Under the pieces are notes generated by a model. The model was given only the letters and a program-made list of their open reading frames with translations. It was not told where the DNA came from and searched no databases. Shown piece by piece: positions 15,322 to 63,052 of a stretch of 64,000 bases of DNA. This DNA comes from Bacteroidia bacterium (GTDB lineage: Bacteria > Bacteroidota > Bacteroidia > Flavobacteriales > Flavobacteriaceae): contig JAUIBP010000010.1 in assembly GCA_030427735.1 (NCBI GenBank), positions 62,001 to 126,000 on the forward strand. The letters are read 5' to 3'. The position numbers and the translations under genes were made by a program. Each line of letters begins with the position of its first letter. Positions within the stretch are counted from its first letter, which is position 1.

Positions 15322-15350
15322 AAAAAAAGTCCCGATTTTCATCGAGACTT
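15322..15350 (-). terminator. Attenuator terminator immediately upstream of pheA
   Basis: On the minus strand AAGTCTCGAT and ATCGGGACTT form a 10-bp stem with one G-U pair and a GAAA tetraloop (plus-strand arms 15341-15350 and 15327-15336), followed by TTTTTTT (15322-15328). It lies only a few bases before the pheA ATG, so as an unregulated terminator it would block the operon. Its upstream arm can instead pair with CGAGAC at 15387-15392 just after the leader-peptide stop, giving an antiterminator. Confidence 0.85.
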
Positions 15351-15397
15351 CATATTAAAATTTATGTTATAAATTACACATATAAGGTCTCGCTCTT

Positions 15398-15451
15398 TTA
15401 GCTAAAAAAGAAATAAAACCAGTTAAAATATGTGAAATTTGTGTTTTGCAT
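15398..15451 (-). CDS. Phe/Tyr-rich leader peptide of the aromatic operon
   Basis: Minus-strand mini-ORF MQNTNFTYFNWFYFFFS (17 codons and stop): six Phe, two Tyr and one Trp, ending with three Phe codons in a row shortly before the stop. An in-frame ATG three codons earlier (15458-15460) is an alternative start. The stop (15398-15400) lies 5 nt before the antiterminator arm at 15384-15393. A ribosome that completes the peptide would cover that arm and allow the terminator to form. One stalled on scarce Phe-tRNA would leave it free. This is classic attenuation logic; no direct evidence beyond sequence. Confidence 0.8.
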   Translation of the reverse strand: MQNTNFTYFNWFYFFFS

Positions 15452-15470
15452 ATCTTGCATTTTGTTGGCA

Positions 15471-19655: not shown

Positions 19656-19734
19656 GGCGTTACCCAAGGGTCGCGCTTTCTGTTATATCTTTTTTTCGTG
19701 CCTCAAAAAAGGATGCCACGGCAATCGCTAACGC
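19656..19734. repeat. Intergenic palindromic repeat (GCGTTA ... TAACGC)
   Basis: Begins GGCGTTACCCAAGGGTCGCGC and ends CAATCGCTAACGC, with mirror pieces inside (TATCTTTTTT near 19685 against AAAAAAGGAT near 19705). It is less AT-rich than its surroundings. I recall GGCGTTACCCAAGGGTCG-type sequences as frequent dispersed repeats in flavobacterial genomes. Its right end supplies the stop codon (TAG, 19728-19730) of the small ORF. Nothing else is seen in 19463-19655. Confidence 0.6.
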
Positions 19735-19970
19735 AAGTTTACAAGCAAACTCTTCACGTAGTCGTAATTCTGCTCGTATTCCCAGTATATCCACCTTCCA
19801 TCTAAATAATCGGTTAAAATATACGTTTCGCTAAGCGATTTTATTCGGGATAGTGCAATCACTTTTTCCGAAAAACCTGCTACTTCTACAGATTCCAAAA
19901 CCTCTTTATTTTCAGAATCGTATCCATGCGAAATAACATGGCTACCAAGATTTAATGTTATAAAACTCAT
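19728..19970 (-). CDS. Conserved small protein of unknown function in the metH-metF unit
   Basis: An 80-residue protein without signal peptide or membrane segment. Pattern: a beta-rich start (FITLNLGSHVISHGYD), an acidic middle (ESVEVAGFSEKVIALSRIKSLSETYILTDY) and an aromatic C-terminal block (GRWIYWEYEQNYDYVKSLL). The start is 2 nt after the metH stop, so it is co-translated with metH. The last six or so codons and the stop fall in the intergenic repeat, so the native C-terminus may have been replaced. I do not recognise a function. Confidence 0.6.
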   Translation of the reverse strand: MSFITLNLGSHVISHGYDSENKEVLESVEVAGFSEKVIALSRIKSLSETYILTDYLDGRWIYWEYEQNYDYVKSLLVNLR

Positions 19971-23846: not shown

Positions 23847-23900
23847 GTTTGATGTTTATTATCAATATGTCATCAGGAAAGAAAGGAAATATTTCTTGGG

Positions 23901-24013
23901 TTATCTGCCCCTTTGAATATGGTTTTCATAGAGTAGAATGTAGCACCTTCTTTAAATGTGGTAAAGGGTTGCTAAGGCTTCACCGGGTCTATTCCCTCTG
24001 CCTTTCGTGATAA
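23901..24013 (-). promoter_or_regulatory. SAM-I (S-box) riboswitch upstream of metH
   Basis: The minus strand carries the S-box core: TTATC opening P1 (24009-24013), GGCAGAGGGAA with GACCCGGTGAAGCCTTAGCAACC, then GAAGGTGCTACATTC, and AGATAA (23901-23906) closing P1. These match the conserved GAGGGA, TGAA, GCAAC and GGTGC elements of SAM-I. It lies about 55 nt upstream of the homocysteine methyltransferase start. High SAM should shut off the metH-metF unit. No strong terminator follows, so control may be at translation; the mechanism is inference. Confidence 0.93.
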
Positions 24014-24018
24014 CGAAA

Positions 24019-36475: not shown

Positions 36476-36481
36476 GTTTAG

Positions 36482-36599
36482 TTATCTATCTAAATCCCCG
36501 ATAAATGAATCGGTTTTTAAGTAGAATGTAGCACCTTCTTTATAAGTTAAAGGGTTGCTAAGGCTTCAGCGGGTCTATTCCCTCCACCTTTCTTGATAA
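36482..36599 (-). promoter_or_regulatory. SAM-I (S-box) riboswitch upstream of metY
   Basis: Minus strand: TTATCAAGAAAGGTGGAGGG opening, GACCCGCTGAAGCCTTAGCAACC, then AAGAAGGTGCTACATTC and the closing AGATAAC (36481-36487). The core is nearly identical to the copy before metH (both share AGCCTTAGCAACCCTTTA and GAAGGTGCTACATTCTAC) but the P4 arm differs. The aptamer is 118 nt upstream of the metY ATG. It should repress metY and, by read-through, the MetX-ThrA fusion and metZ when SAM is high. The stretch 36364-36481 holds the leader, and 36635-36696 shows nothing else. Confidence 0.93.
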
Positions 36600-36603
36600 C
36601 ATT

Positions 36604-59447: not shown

Positions 59448-61133
59448 CTAGAACTCATCGGTCACGCACCCTTTTGATGCAGACGATACGGTTCTCGCAT
59501 ATTTGTAAAGCACTCCTCTCTCGAATTTTAATTTTGGAGCTACCCATTTTGCTCGTCTCTCAGCTAGTTCTTCGTCTGAAATTTCAATATTAATGGTATT
59601 ATTAACGGCATCGATAGCTATGATGTCTCCATTTTCTACCAAGGCAATATTACCACCATCTTGAGCTTCGGGCGCTACATGTCCCACTACGAAACCATGC
59701 GAACCTCCAGAAAAACGGCCATCGGTAATTAAAGCCACATCTTTACCTAATCCTGCTCCCATTATAGACGATGTTGGTTTTAACATTTCCGGCATTCCTG
59801 GACCTCCTTTTGGACCTTCGTAGCGGATGATGACGACATCTCCTTTTTTAACCTTCCCTGTCTTTATGCCTTCGTTCACTGCCGCTTCACCATCAAACAC
59901 ATTGGCAACACCTCTAAACGACAAACCTTCTTTTCCTGTAATTTTTGCCACAGCACCTTCTGTCGCTAAGTTCCCAAATAGAATTCTGATGTGTCCAGAA
60001 TCCTTTACGGGTTTATCTAATGTTTTTATGATATCTTGTCCGTCTAATAAATTAGGGACATCTTTTAAATTTTCGGCTAAAGTTTTTCCTGTTACTGTTA
60101 AACAATCGCCGTGAAGCATATCGTTTTCTAACATATATTTTAAAACTCCTGGAATTCCTCCAACGGCATGCAAATCTTCCATTGCATATTTACCGCTTGG
60201 TTTTAAATCTGCCAATAAAGGTGTAGCATCGCTAATACGTTTAAAATCTTCTAAGGTAAACTCTAATTGAGCCGCTTTAGCAATCGCCAAAAAATGAAGC
60301 ACAGCATTAGTAGATCCTCCTAAAACAGTTACCAGTCTAAAAGCATTTTCCAACGATTTTTTAGTAACAATATCCGACGGTTTAATATCTCTTTCCAACA
60401 ATAAACGTAAAGCCTCTCCTGCTTTTACAGACTCTTCTTCTTTTAAATTCCCGTTACTAATTGCCGGATTTGAAGAGTTAAAAGGCAACGACATCCCTAA
60501 AGCTTCTATTGCCGACGCCATTGTATTTGCAGTGTACATGCCTCCGCAAGCACCCGCACCAGGGCACGCTTTATGTACAACTTCCTTAAACTCTGATTCA
60601 TCTATTGTGCCTGCCACTTTTTGCCCATAAGCTTCAAAAGCAGAAATGATATCTAATTTTTTTCCGTTATGACAACCCGAAGCAATAGTACCTCCATACA
60701 CTAATACCGATGGTCTGTTTAGTCGCAACATCGCCATTAAGGCACCTGGCATATTTTTATCGCAACCTACTACAGTGACCAATCCGTCGTAACTCATGGC
60801 TTCCACTACGGTCTCCATAGAATCTGCAATAATATCGCGAGAAGGCAGAGAAAATCGCATACCTGGTGTACCATTAGAAATACCGTCGCTTACACCTATG
60901 GTATTAAATATAAGACCGACTAAATTTGCATTTTCTGTTCCTTTTTTAACATGCAAAGCCAAGTCGTTTAGGTGCATATTACACGGATTACCTTCGTAAC
61001 CTGTACTCGCAATGCCTATAAAAGGCTTTTTTAAATCTTCGTCTGTTAGCCCTATTGCATGCAACATGGCCTGAGCTGCCGGCAATGTTGCGTCTTGAGT
61101 TACTGTATTACTGTACTTTTTTAAGTTTTTCAT
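59448..61133 (-). CDS. ilvD: Dihydroxy-acid dehydratase
   Basis: A 561-residue iron-sulfur dehydratase. Cluster cysteines in [20 protein letters not shown] and [19 protein letters not shown]-terminal [15 protein letters not shown] and [12 protein letters not shown]. First structural gene of the branched-chain operon. Its 5' leader runs about 260 nt back to an attenuator-like terminator; 61134-61395 in between is AT-rich with no other gene or clear signal. Confidence 0.96.
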
Positions 61134-61395
61134 ATGTTTTTAAACGCTTTTACGCTATATCCTTTCTTTACAAGGGTACTAAATTAATTTTTTATGGTTT
61201 TTTAACAGATTTAATCTCATTCTCACAGACTAAACTCATTTTAAATATTAATGATATAAAATATTGATTTACAGTATTTTAACCCAATTAATATATGATG
61301 TTCAATACCTGATTTTTTTTCACTTTTTTTCCTTCTATTATTTAACTGATTTTTCACTCAGCATAACTATTCACATTCCATTAAAAAACCAGCAA

Positions 61396-61426
61396 TAAAA
61401 AAGCCTTCCCGATAAAAGGAAGGCTT
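61396..61426 (-). terminator. Attenuator terminator in the ilv leader
   Basis: Minus strand AAGCCTTCC (61418-61426) pairs with GGAAGGCTT (61401-61409) across an 8-nt loop and is followed by TTTTTT (about 61397-61402). It comes after an Ile/Val-rich mini-ORF and before ilvD. Its first arm and loop (CTTCCTTT, 61415-61422) can alternatively pair with AAAGGAAG (61453-61460), which overlaps the mini-ORF stop, forming an antiterminator. Confidence 0.85.
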
Positions 61427-61458
61427 CAAAATTTATTATAATAGTAAACACACTTCCT

Positions 61459-61527
61459 TTATCCCAGAGTACGAATCTCCACGACAATAATAGAAATGAT
61501 GTTTACAATTGTTTTTCTCATATACAT
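61459..61527 (-). CDS. Ile/Val-rich leader peptide of the ilv operon
   Basis: Minus-strand ORF of 22 codons: MYM, RKTIVNIISIIVVEI, RTLG, stop. It has six Ile and three Val codons, most of them clustered (NIISIIVV), and one Leu. A second in-frame ATG at 61519-61521 gives 20 codons. The stop codon (61459-61461) overlaps the antiterminator arm 61453-61460, so a ribosome reaching the stop would expose the terminator, while stalling on Ile or Val codons would favour read-through. Confidence 0.8.
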   Translation of the reverse strand: MYMRKTIVNIISIIVVEIRTLG

Positions 61528-61544
61528 GTCAAATATCTTAAATC

Positions 61545-61576
61545 TAAAGGTAACGACCTAAAAAAATAAGCACAAA
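61545..61576 (-). promoter_or_regulatory. Candidate promoter of the ilv operon (TTTG-N20-TACCTTTA)
   Basis: Minus strand TTTG (61573-61576), 20 nt, TACCTTTA (61545-61552), one mismatch to TAnnTTTG. Predicted start of transcription lies about 10-15 nt before the leader-peptide ATG. It lies in the short space after the gltD stop, so ilvDBNCA is independent of the glt genes. Confidence 0.5.
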
Positions 61577-61585
61577 TTAAACTAA

Positions 61586-63052
61586 TTATACTCTAGGCAA
61601 ATCTATTCCCTTTTTAAGTGGCAAATTAGATTCTCCCATAAGGTACTTATCGACATGATGAGCTGCTTGTCTACCTTCTGAGATTGCCCAAACAATTAAA
61701 GATTGACCACGACGCATATCTCCTGCCACAAAAATACCCGGCACATTAGACATGTAATCATTAGTATCGGCCTTAATATTGGTTCTAAAGTCTGTCTCCA
61801 AGCCAAATTGCTCTACCAAGGTAGTTTCTGCCCCTGTAAAACCTAGGGCCAACAAGGCCAATTCGCAATCCCAAGTTTTTTCTGTTCCTGCTAATTCTTT
61901 AAGCTGTGGACGTTCTCCTGGTTTAAAAATCCATTCTACTTCAACGGTTTTTAACCCCTTAAGATTTCCTTCTTTATCCCCTAAAAATTCTTTGGTCGAA
62001 ATACTAAAAAAGCGTTCTACACCTTCTTTATGCGACGAACTTGTTCTTAATCGCATTGGCCAATATGGCCATGGTTGATGCGCTGGACGTCCTTCCGTAG
62101 GTTTATCTAAAATCTCGAAGTTTGTAACCGATTTAGCACCATGTCGATTAGAGGTTCCTATACAATCGGAACCAGTATCTCCACCACCAATTACAATTAC
62201 ATTTTTACCTGTAGCCAAAATCTCTTCACCTAAATCTTTTTGACCGCTTACTCGCTTATTATTTTGCTTCAGAAAATCCATAGCTTGCACTACGCCTTTT
62301 AAATCCGATCCCGGAATTGGCATACCACGTCTTACAGTCGCACCACCACATAACACAACAGCATCAAATTCAGCCTTTAATTTCTCGGCATCAACATTCA
62401 CTCCTACATGTGCATTGGTTTTAAAGGTAACCCCTTCTTCTTTTAAAACTTCGATACGTCTGTCTATAATTTGTTTCTCCAATTTAAAATCTGGAATTCC
62501 GTAACGCAGCAAACCACCAACTTTATCGTCGCGTTCAAAAAGCGTTACTAAATGCCCCGCACGATTTAACTGTTGTGCAGCAGCCAAACCTGAAGGTCCG
62601 CCACCAATAACAGCCACAGTTTTTCCTGTACGCGCTTTTGGTGGGTGAGCTACAATCCAACCTTCTTTAAAAGCTGTTTCTACAATATTTTTCTCGATAT
62701 TTTCTATGGTTACAGGGTCTTCATTTATACCCAACACACACGCCTCTTCGCATGGCGCAGGACATAAACGACCTGTAAACTCTGGAAAGTTATTGGTAGA
62801 ATGTAATATTGCTGCCGCCTCTTTCCATTTACCCTTATAAACTTTATCGTTAAAATCTGGAATTAAATTTCCTAACGGACACCCGCTATGGCAAAACGGA
62901 ATTCCACAATCCATACAACGCGCGCCCTGATTTTTAATTTCAGGTTCAGATAAAGGTATAGTAAATTCTTTATAGTCTTTTATACGTTGCTCTACAGGCT
63001 CGTAAGCCTCTATTTCGCGTTTATATTCTAAAAATCCTGTTGTTTTTCCCAT
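61586..63052 (-). CDS. gltD: Glutamate synthase small subunit
   Basis: A 488-residue NADPH-oxidising flavoprotein that feeds electrons to GltB for making glutamate from glutamine and 2-oxoglutarate. N-terminal iron-sulfur ligands in CMDCGIPFCHSGCPLGN and CPAPCEEACV; FAD site VIGGGPSGLAAAQQL; NADPH site VIGGGDTGSDCIGT; C-terminal GIFVAGDMRRGQSLIVWAI. Stops 5 nt after gltB begins it; typical gltBD order. Confidence 0.96.
   Translation of the reverse strand: MGKTTGFLEYKREIEAYEPVEQRIKDYKEFTIPLSEPEIKNQGARCMDCGIPFCHSGCPLGNLIPDFNDKVYKGKWKEAAAILHSTNNFPEFTGRLCPAPCEEACVLGINEDPVTIENIEKNIVETAFKEGWIVAHPPKARTGKTVAVIGGGPSGLAAAQQLNRAGHLVTLFERDDKVGGLLRYGIPDFKLEKQIIDRRIEVLKEEGVTFKTNAHVGVNVDAEKLKAEFDAVVLCGGATVRRGMPIPGSDLKGVVQAMDFLKQNNKRVSGQKDLGEEILATGKNVIVIGGGDTGSDCIGTSNRHGAKSVTNFEILDKPTEGRPAHQPWPYWPMRLRTSSSHKEGVERFFSISTKEFLGDKEGNLKGLKTVEVEWIFKPGERPQLKELAGTEKTWDCELALLALGFTGAETTLVEQFGLETDFRTNIKADTNDYMSNVPGIFVAGDMRRGQSLIVWAISEGRQAAHHVDKYLMGESNLPLKKGIDLPRV

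Follow-up and report, generated by a model that had tools for sequence, protein, structure and literature searches.

An Ile/Val leader-peptide attenuator and a predicted second promoter module upstream of ilvD in Flavobacteriaceae

How is the synthesis of branched-chain amino acids regulated in Bacteroidota? We found little on this subject in the literature, and the ilv locus of the window, the whole stretch of 64,000 nucleotides analysed here, raises the question in a concrete form: is its ilvDBNCA-type operon governed by an attenuator, as a preliminary description of 61396-61576 had proposed, or by more than that? The order on the minus strand is a gltD-like gene (ending at 61586), a leader ORF, a terminator, 266 nt and ilvD (starting at 61133), and Pfam confirms ilvD together with ilvB, ilvN, ilvC and ilvA-type genes. 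What the preliminary description said about the sequence itself holds throughout on re-reading. The features of the promoter-proximal part, and ilvD, are:

61545-61576, minus strand: promoter of the preliminary description, TTTG (61576-61573)-N20-TACCTTTA (61552-61545); present, not kept in the genus
61530-61537, minus strand: P1 -7-like element GATATTTG, likely promoter driving the leader; unchanged across the six genus genomes
61459-61521, minus strand: leader peptide MRKTIVNIISIIVVEIRTLG, counted from the second ATG of an ORF that opens at 61527; relatives have similar peptides of MKNILVNIISISVVVIRLQG type
61492-61506, minus strand: region 1, within the Ile/Val codons; paired with region 2 (61457-61444) in the MFE fold
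61444-61460, minus strand: region 2, overlapping the stop codon, with the antiterminator 5' arm AAAGGAAG at 61453-61460 (folds, duplexes, swap test)
61415-61427, minus strand: region 3, common to antiterminator and terminator (folds, swap test)
61400-61427, minus strand: intrinsic terminator (regions 3:4), A class with CCTTCC core (terminator scan, folds)
59448-61133, minus strand: ilvD, first gene of the ilvDBNCA-type operon (Pfam)

The ORF at 61459-61527 (minus strand) encodes MYMRKTIVNIISIIVVEIRTLG, and its six Ile and three Val are the nine Ile/Val among 22 codons counted earlier. By itself, a content of nine Ile/Val in 20 codons is only mildly unusual (p about 0.001 to 0.01 at assumed base rates of 14.5 to 20%); it is because of conservation across leaders, set against a simulated control, that we regard the richness as above chance. 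The exact complementarity of AAAGGAAG (61460-61453), which overlaps TAA, to CTTCCTTT (61422-61415) was confirmed as well. The terminator consists of 11 pairs, a 6-nt loop and a T tail, and the scan gave this one in the kilobase scanned, compared to a mean of 0.4 in shuffles. Folding of the whole leader (-40.1 kcal/mol; z -4.5, a value matched by 0 of 200 shuffles) shows the 1:2 pairing together with the 3:4 terminator, with duplex energies of -15.6 kcal/mol for 1:2 and -13.1 kcal/mol for 2:3. When arm 4 is absent, regions 2 and 3 pair via AAAGGAAG:CUUCCUUU at -10.0 kcal/mol, a fold that taken alone is unremarkable against shuffles (z -0.9, equalled in 36 of 200). With arm 4 present, the terminator (-16.5) wins over 2:3, and antitermination must therefore be kinetic. 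The predicted pairings follow the four-region logic of classical attenuation, and the locus combines an ORF rich in end-product codons, a terminator before the first gene and mutually exclusive 2:3 and 3:4 pairings. No Rfam family, T-box and riboswitch families included, reaches its gathering score at the locus; the best sub-threshold match is Phe_leader (28.1 vs. 55 bits).

The promoter of the leader transcript had been placed at TTTG-N20-TACCTTTA. This string is present as written, but it is probably not the promoter: the five congeners have not kept TACCTTTA, whereas GATATTTGA, located immediately ahead of the leader's ATG, shows no difference among the six genus genomes. Among 94 first attenuators, 59 have an A(T/C)2-3G element ending 3-16 nt before the leader ATG, an enrichment that is modest (60 matches in 14 offsets vs. 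114 in 60 others). The P1 -7 element of the window (GATATTTG) departs from TAnnTTTG, the flavobacterial sigma-A -7 consensus given in the accessible text of PMC9723704. According to the same text, the -7 box of F. psychrophilum is located at -12 to -5, so that the leader would start near 61525 and the peptide would begin with the second ATG, about 4 nt in. The leader mRNA is probably nearly leaderless, its predicted ORF lying a few nucleotides from the 5' end.

For comparison, we used the DNA upstream of ilvD from 80 named contigs and further relatives, which gave 210 usable leaders of at least 200 nt, with a few duplicates among them. Of these leaders, 103 contain an Ile/Val-dense ORF with a terminator after it, vs. 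3 of 210 simulated ones; at a stricter density of at least 6, the counts are 95 vs. 0 (of 210 each). The peptide is thus conserved, as the original attenuator proposal demanded. The 106 distinct leader peptides have a median of 20 residues and consist of 28.5% Ile, 14.3% Val and 5.7% Leu. Two core classes can be distinguished: A, with CCTTCC and a region 2 of GGAA type, and B, with CCTGTATCA and a region 2 of TGATACAG type. Comparative folding had been recommended earlier as a check. A leader's own 2:3 duplex beats within-class swaps in class A (61 leaders, equalled in 0 of 5000 permutations) and in class B (34 leaders, equalled in 31 of 5000), relatedness being uncorrected in both, and cross-class 2:3 duplexes are far weaker than within-class ones; RNAalifold on 58 A-class leaders, on the other hand, recovered the terminator but neither 1:2 nor 2:3. 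Attenuators of the same plan, many with other cores, are present in contigs titled Saprospiraceae, Segetibacter, Ignavibacteriae, Elizabethkingia and Flavobacterium. Some degenerate cases visible by eye (L044, L102, L166, L188, and L202) escaped the attenuator finder, and the second hairpins that it reported for L084 and L120 were judged spurious. This comparison leaves the predicted element well supported as a classical leader-peptide attenuator.

The window has a single attenuator, and some relatives have two in series. A second one was detected in 13 leaders (L007, L017, L028, L031, L083, L089, L128, L134, L144, L150, L151, L169, and L182), with its ATG 4-45 nt after the first terminator, and a fourteenth case, L223, was spotted by eye. 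In most of them the gap leaves scant room for an own promoter; L150 and L169 have ATTG there. In 12 of the 14 tandem leaders, the second attenuator has a B-class core and the first an A-class or other core; the exceptions are L017 (A second) and L031 (an Ignavibacteriae contig).

The preliminary description had called the roughly 260-nt leader after the terminator unusually long. The length is correct at 266 nt, but this stretch is not merely leader, since it carries a conserved promoter-like module:

61294-61305, minus strand: Box1 TTGAACATCATA (word counts, alignment)
61255-61283, minus strand: dyad of 29 bp, consensus TTTAAATAACTGATAATCAGTTATTTAAA (dyad score)
61230-61238, minus strand: Box2 TGAGTTTAG (alignment)
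61179-61186, minus strand: P2 -7-like element TAATTTAG, 119 nt after the Box1 start (fixed spacing); expected transcription start near 61174

In 88 post-terminator stretches, two words were overrepresented: ACATCATA, present in 32 leaders vs. 0.4 expected, and TAATTTCG, in 24 vs. 0.6 expected. Alignment on ACATCATA yielded Box1 as TTGAAYATSATA, a dyad centred 36 columns after the Box1 start and Box2 as TGARTTTAR. The 85 distinct Box1 leaders comprise 70 that align without indels and 15 with one inserted base. For the dyad alignment, the inserted-base leaders were excluded beforehand and 53 of 67 references were used (14 were dropped to shorten the list); that the 53-sequence alignment is gap-free is partly due to this selection. 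Its dyad score is 0.58, compared to a maximum of 0.297 in 300 column permutations. A -7-like element lies 117-119 nt after Box1 in 80 of the 85 leaders, and its distance to the ilvD start is variable (21 to 113 nt). At this spacing many relatives have TATCTTTG, TACCTTTG, TATATTTG or TAATTTCG, of which the first three match TAnnTTTG; the P2 -7 element of the window (TAATTTAG) departs from it. The -33 element of Bacteroidota sigma-A promoters is TTG or TTTG, and none was evident by eye at the expected distance from P2 in the window.

We read the post-terminator stretch as a DNA element because RNAalifold gave no pairs, either on all 85 sequences or on the 53, and because a frame stays open through 80 nt in at most 4 of the 53 sequences per frame; RNA-structure and coding readings of the module were rejected on these results. 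A decayed B-class attenuator before Box1 in the window was also considered and discarded, as neither a GATACAG core nor an Ile/Val-rich ATG ORF was seen by eye. A short GTG frame, at about 61321-61286 by eye, overlaps Box1. Two main forms of Box1 occur. The ACATCA form (48 leaders) is accompanied by an A attenuator in 29, AB in 3, B in 1, another core in 2 and none detected in 13, and the ATATGA form (29 leaders) by B in 13, A in 1, AB in 1 and none in 14; the remaining 8 of the 85 leaders have other forms. The two main forms go with attenuator class, which may track two forms of a putative regulator, or just descent.

The module was searched for with a position matrix under leave-one-out scoring, trained on 53 of the leaders that it scored with relatives left in, and was found in 141 of the 210 leaders at a threshold reached by 1 of 420 simulated sequences. 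The -7 element is not part of this matrix, and over the 141 module loci its pattern matched 121 times at offsets 117-119, compared to no more than 4 times at any other offset. A profile run at a far stricter cut-off, set by a control that we distrust for its implausibly high-scoring shuffles, passed 45 of 210 leaders. Within the family we considered 128 leaders (L001 and L082-L212, minus L099 from another family, L100 and L106 as too short and L133 as a duplicate). The module is present in 113 of these, 70 with a detected attenuator and 43 without, the latter being an upper count because the finder missed degenerate attenuators. The rest have the attenuator only (4) or neither element (11); in 8 of these 11 a long open frame runs up to ilvD, which is therefore probably not the first gene there. 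All 81 attenuator hits in module-bearing family leaders are located 5' of the module. Leaders without a detected attenuator include some in which the module comes immediately after an unrelated gene, for instance a tRNA gene with its terminator (tRNA-Phe in L121, tRNA-Met in L205), and a promoter should therefore lie there. The distance from terminator to ATG is 151-347 nt with the module (83 loci); without it the median is 36 nt, but 5 of 20 fall at 207-301 nt. No module was detected in 20 of the 103 attenuator leaders, those titled Flavobacterium among them; the set has 8 Flavobacterium contigs, all without a detected module. In L037, L202, L203, and L229, a leader peptide or terminator beside the module looks by eye to be decaying, which suggests that the predicted attenuator is lost more easily than the module.

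At the level of whole genomes, the genome of the window contains one strong module match (E 1.3e-12; next best 0.009), and a multi-operon regulon was rejected for want of a second strong copy there. The best match reaches E ≤1.6e-6 in 19 of 59 genomes, one in each and all 19 at the ilv operon, in two of them before an ilvE-like aminotransferase gene that precedes ilvD. The other 40 genomes have no match of this strength; weaker best matches are mixed, lying at ilvD in G017, G035, and G007 and away from ilvD in G030 and G037. Two of the eight cases with a long open frame up to ilvD were followed further upstream: in G018, an aminotransferase gene is preceded by two attenuators (by eye) and the module, and in G014 the module is present, with no attenuator seen there. 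The genome of the window also encodes five AsnC_trans_reg proteins (Lrp/AsnC family), none of them linked to the module; their genes are regulator candidates by analogy only.

We consider it likely that the operon has two layers of control, P1 with the attenuator and then a putative second promoter, P2, which has a predicted regulator array and whose transcripts would bypass the attenuator. Peptide, terminator, alternative pairings, module, spacing and the single strong genome copy are features of the sequence and its comparison; ribosome stalling, the tRNA sensed, the activity of P2 and the regulator with its sign are what we infer from them. In the first layer, transcription from P1 would give a nearly leaderless mRNA whose first ORF is the 20-codon Ile/Val-rich peptide. 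If charged Ile-tRNA or Val-tRNA ran short, the ribosome would stall in these codons and cover region 1, allowing 2 to pair with 3 before arm 4 is made, and the polymerase would read on. With plentiful charged tRNAs, the ribosome at the stop codon would sit over region 2 (or 1:2 would form behind it), the 3:4 terminator would form and transcription would end near 61396. In the second layer, P2, between terminator and ilvD with its -7 element at 61179-61186, would be served by the rigid upstream array of Box1, 29-bp dyad and Box2, the expected site of a putative, probably dimeric regulator. Its transcripts would begin near 61174, some 41 nt ahead of ilvD, and skip the attenuator. A second promoter with candidate sites for a dimeric regulator appears to be the simplest reading of the module, and the attenuator reading, sound for the leader, probably does not describe the operon's only control.

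Under the plainest alternative, transcription starts from P1 alone and what follows the terminator is a long passive 5' UTR. The non-consensus -7 element of P2 in the window, the lack of an evident -33 element and the attenuator leaders without a detected module, those titled Flavobacterium among them, all fit such an arrangement, but a rigid 118-nt module is ill-suited to a passive UTR, and 43 of 128 family leaders have it with no attenuator detected, even directly after a tRNA gene and terminator; we regard this alternative as unlikely. Somewhat less probable is that the module carries regulator sites whose role is to repress or roadblock transcription coming from P1, with no initiation there: the dyad does lie inside the transcribed leader, but the -7-like element at fixed spacing would be left unexplained and module-only leaders would have no evident promoter.

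Riboswitches, too, show fixed spacing and conserved blocks, and the module could on these grounds be a structured RNA acting as a second RNA checkpoint. Against this stand the lack of pairs in RNAalifold, a dyad that behaves as a symmetric consensus, the absence of any Rfam family at threshold and the promoter-like element that closes the module, and we hold a structured RNA to be quite improbable. The hairpin, finally, lies 159 nt downstream of the end of the gltD-like gene (61586) and might be its ordinary terminator, with the short ORF there by chance; peptide, terminator and pairing, however, recur over many genera and are rare in simulated leaders, which makes this very improbable indeed.

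The window contains further RNA elements. The parallel drawn earlier with an aromatic leader is real: a Phe/Tyr/Trp-rich leader peptide (...NTNFTYFNWFYFFFS; minus strand, delimited as 15398-15451 or 15398-15460) with a terminator at 15326-15351 precedes a prephenate dehydratase gene. Two SAM riboswitches are present (36479-36602 and 23898-24016, both minus strand), as is a Flavo-1 RNA motif (19665-19739, minus strand), whose function is called unclear in the accessible text of PMC9723704.

Extended to the Flavobacteriaceae, our reading would be that the Ile/Val operon is run from a dedicated, rigid module of about 118 bp (Box1, 29-bp dyad, Box2, -7), present in one strong copy per genome and served by a predicted operon-specific regulator. 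Attenuators with their own promoter, single or serial, would be optional upstream cassettes that were repeatedly lost, giving an amino-acid-sensing path and a bypass path. For this wider proposal we see the chances as evenly balanced. Should P2 prove real, a plain-attenuator reading would mispredict how the locus is regulated, and there would be a family-wide regulator of the operon to identify, its likely binding site already outlined. What attenuation adds could be asked in the natural series of leaders that combine the same module with zero, one or two attenuators.

E. coli ilvIH is transcribed from an Lrp-activated promoter with several spaced regulator sites upstream. The module resembles it in having several spaced candidate regulator sites upstream of a putative ilv promoter, but differs in its rigid spacing and its one strong copy in the own genome. 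The E. coli ilvGMEDA and ilvBN operons have leader-peptide attenuators. Such an attenuator also precedes C. glutamicum ilvBNC, according to the accessible text of PMC11857589, and the likeness to these systems extends to regulatory codons or leader, alternative hairpins and a branched-chain operon. Unlike them, as far as that text describes them, our case has a leader ORF that is probably nearly leaderless and contains few Leu codons; the cores fall into classes A and B, some relatives have tandem copies, and a conserved promoter-like module follows. The accessible text on the tandem attenuators of Salmonella mgtCBR (PMC3641672) likewise describes two short leader ORFs on one transcript, as in our relatives; there the operon is another one, whereas the two peptides of our relatives are both rich in Ile/Val, and the window has a single copy. 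In Bacteroides thetaiotaomicron, long 5' UTRs and short ORFs reminiscent of attenuation leader peptides have been reported, with no ilv in the main text available (PMC7366714). For F. psychrophilum, the accessible text of PMC9723704 gives strong clues for leader-peptide attenuation before amino-acid biosynthesis operons and describes pheA and hisG 5' elements common to this species and other genera; its main text has no word beginning with ilv, and the accessible passages mention neither tandem attenuators nor such a promoter module. We found no ilv attenuator or ilv promoter module described for Bacteroidota, and older comparative papers may cover the attenuator. Attenuation is a known mechanism; the layered arrangement of an attenuator and a promoter-like module, as predicted from sequence comparison, is the new part.
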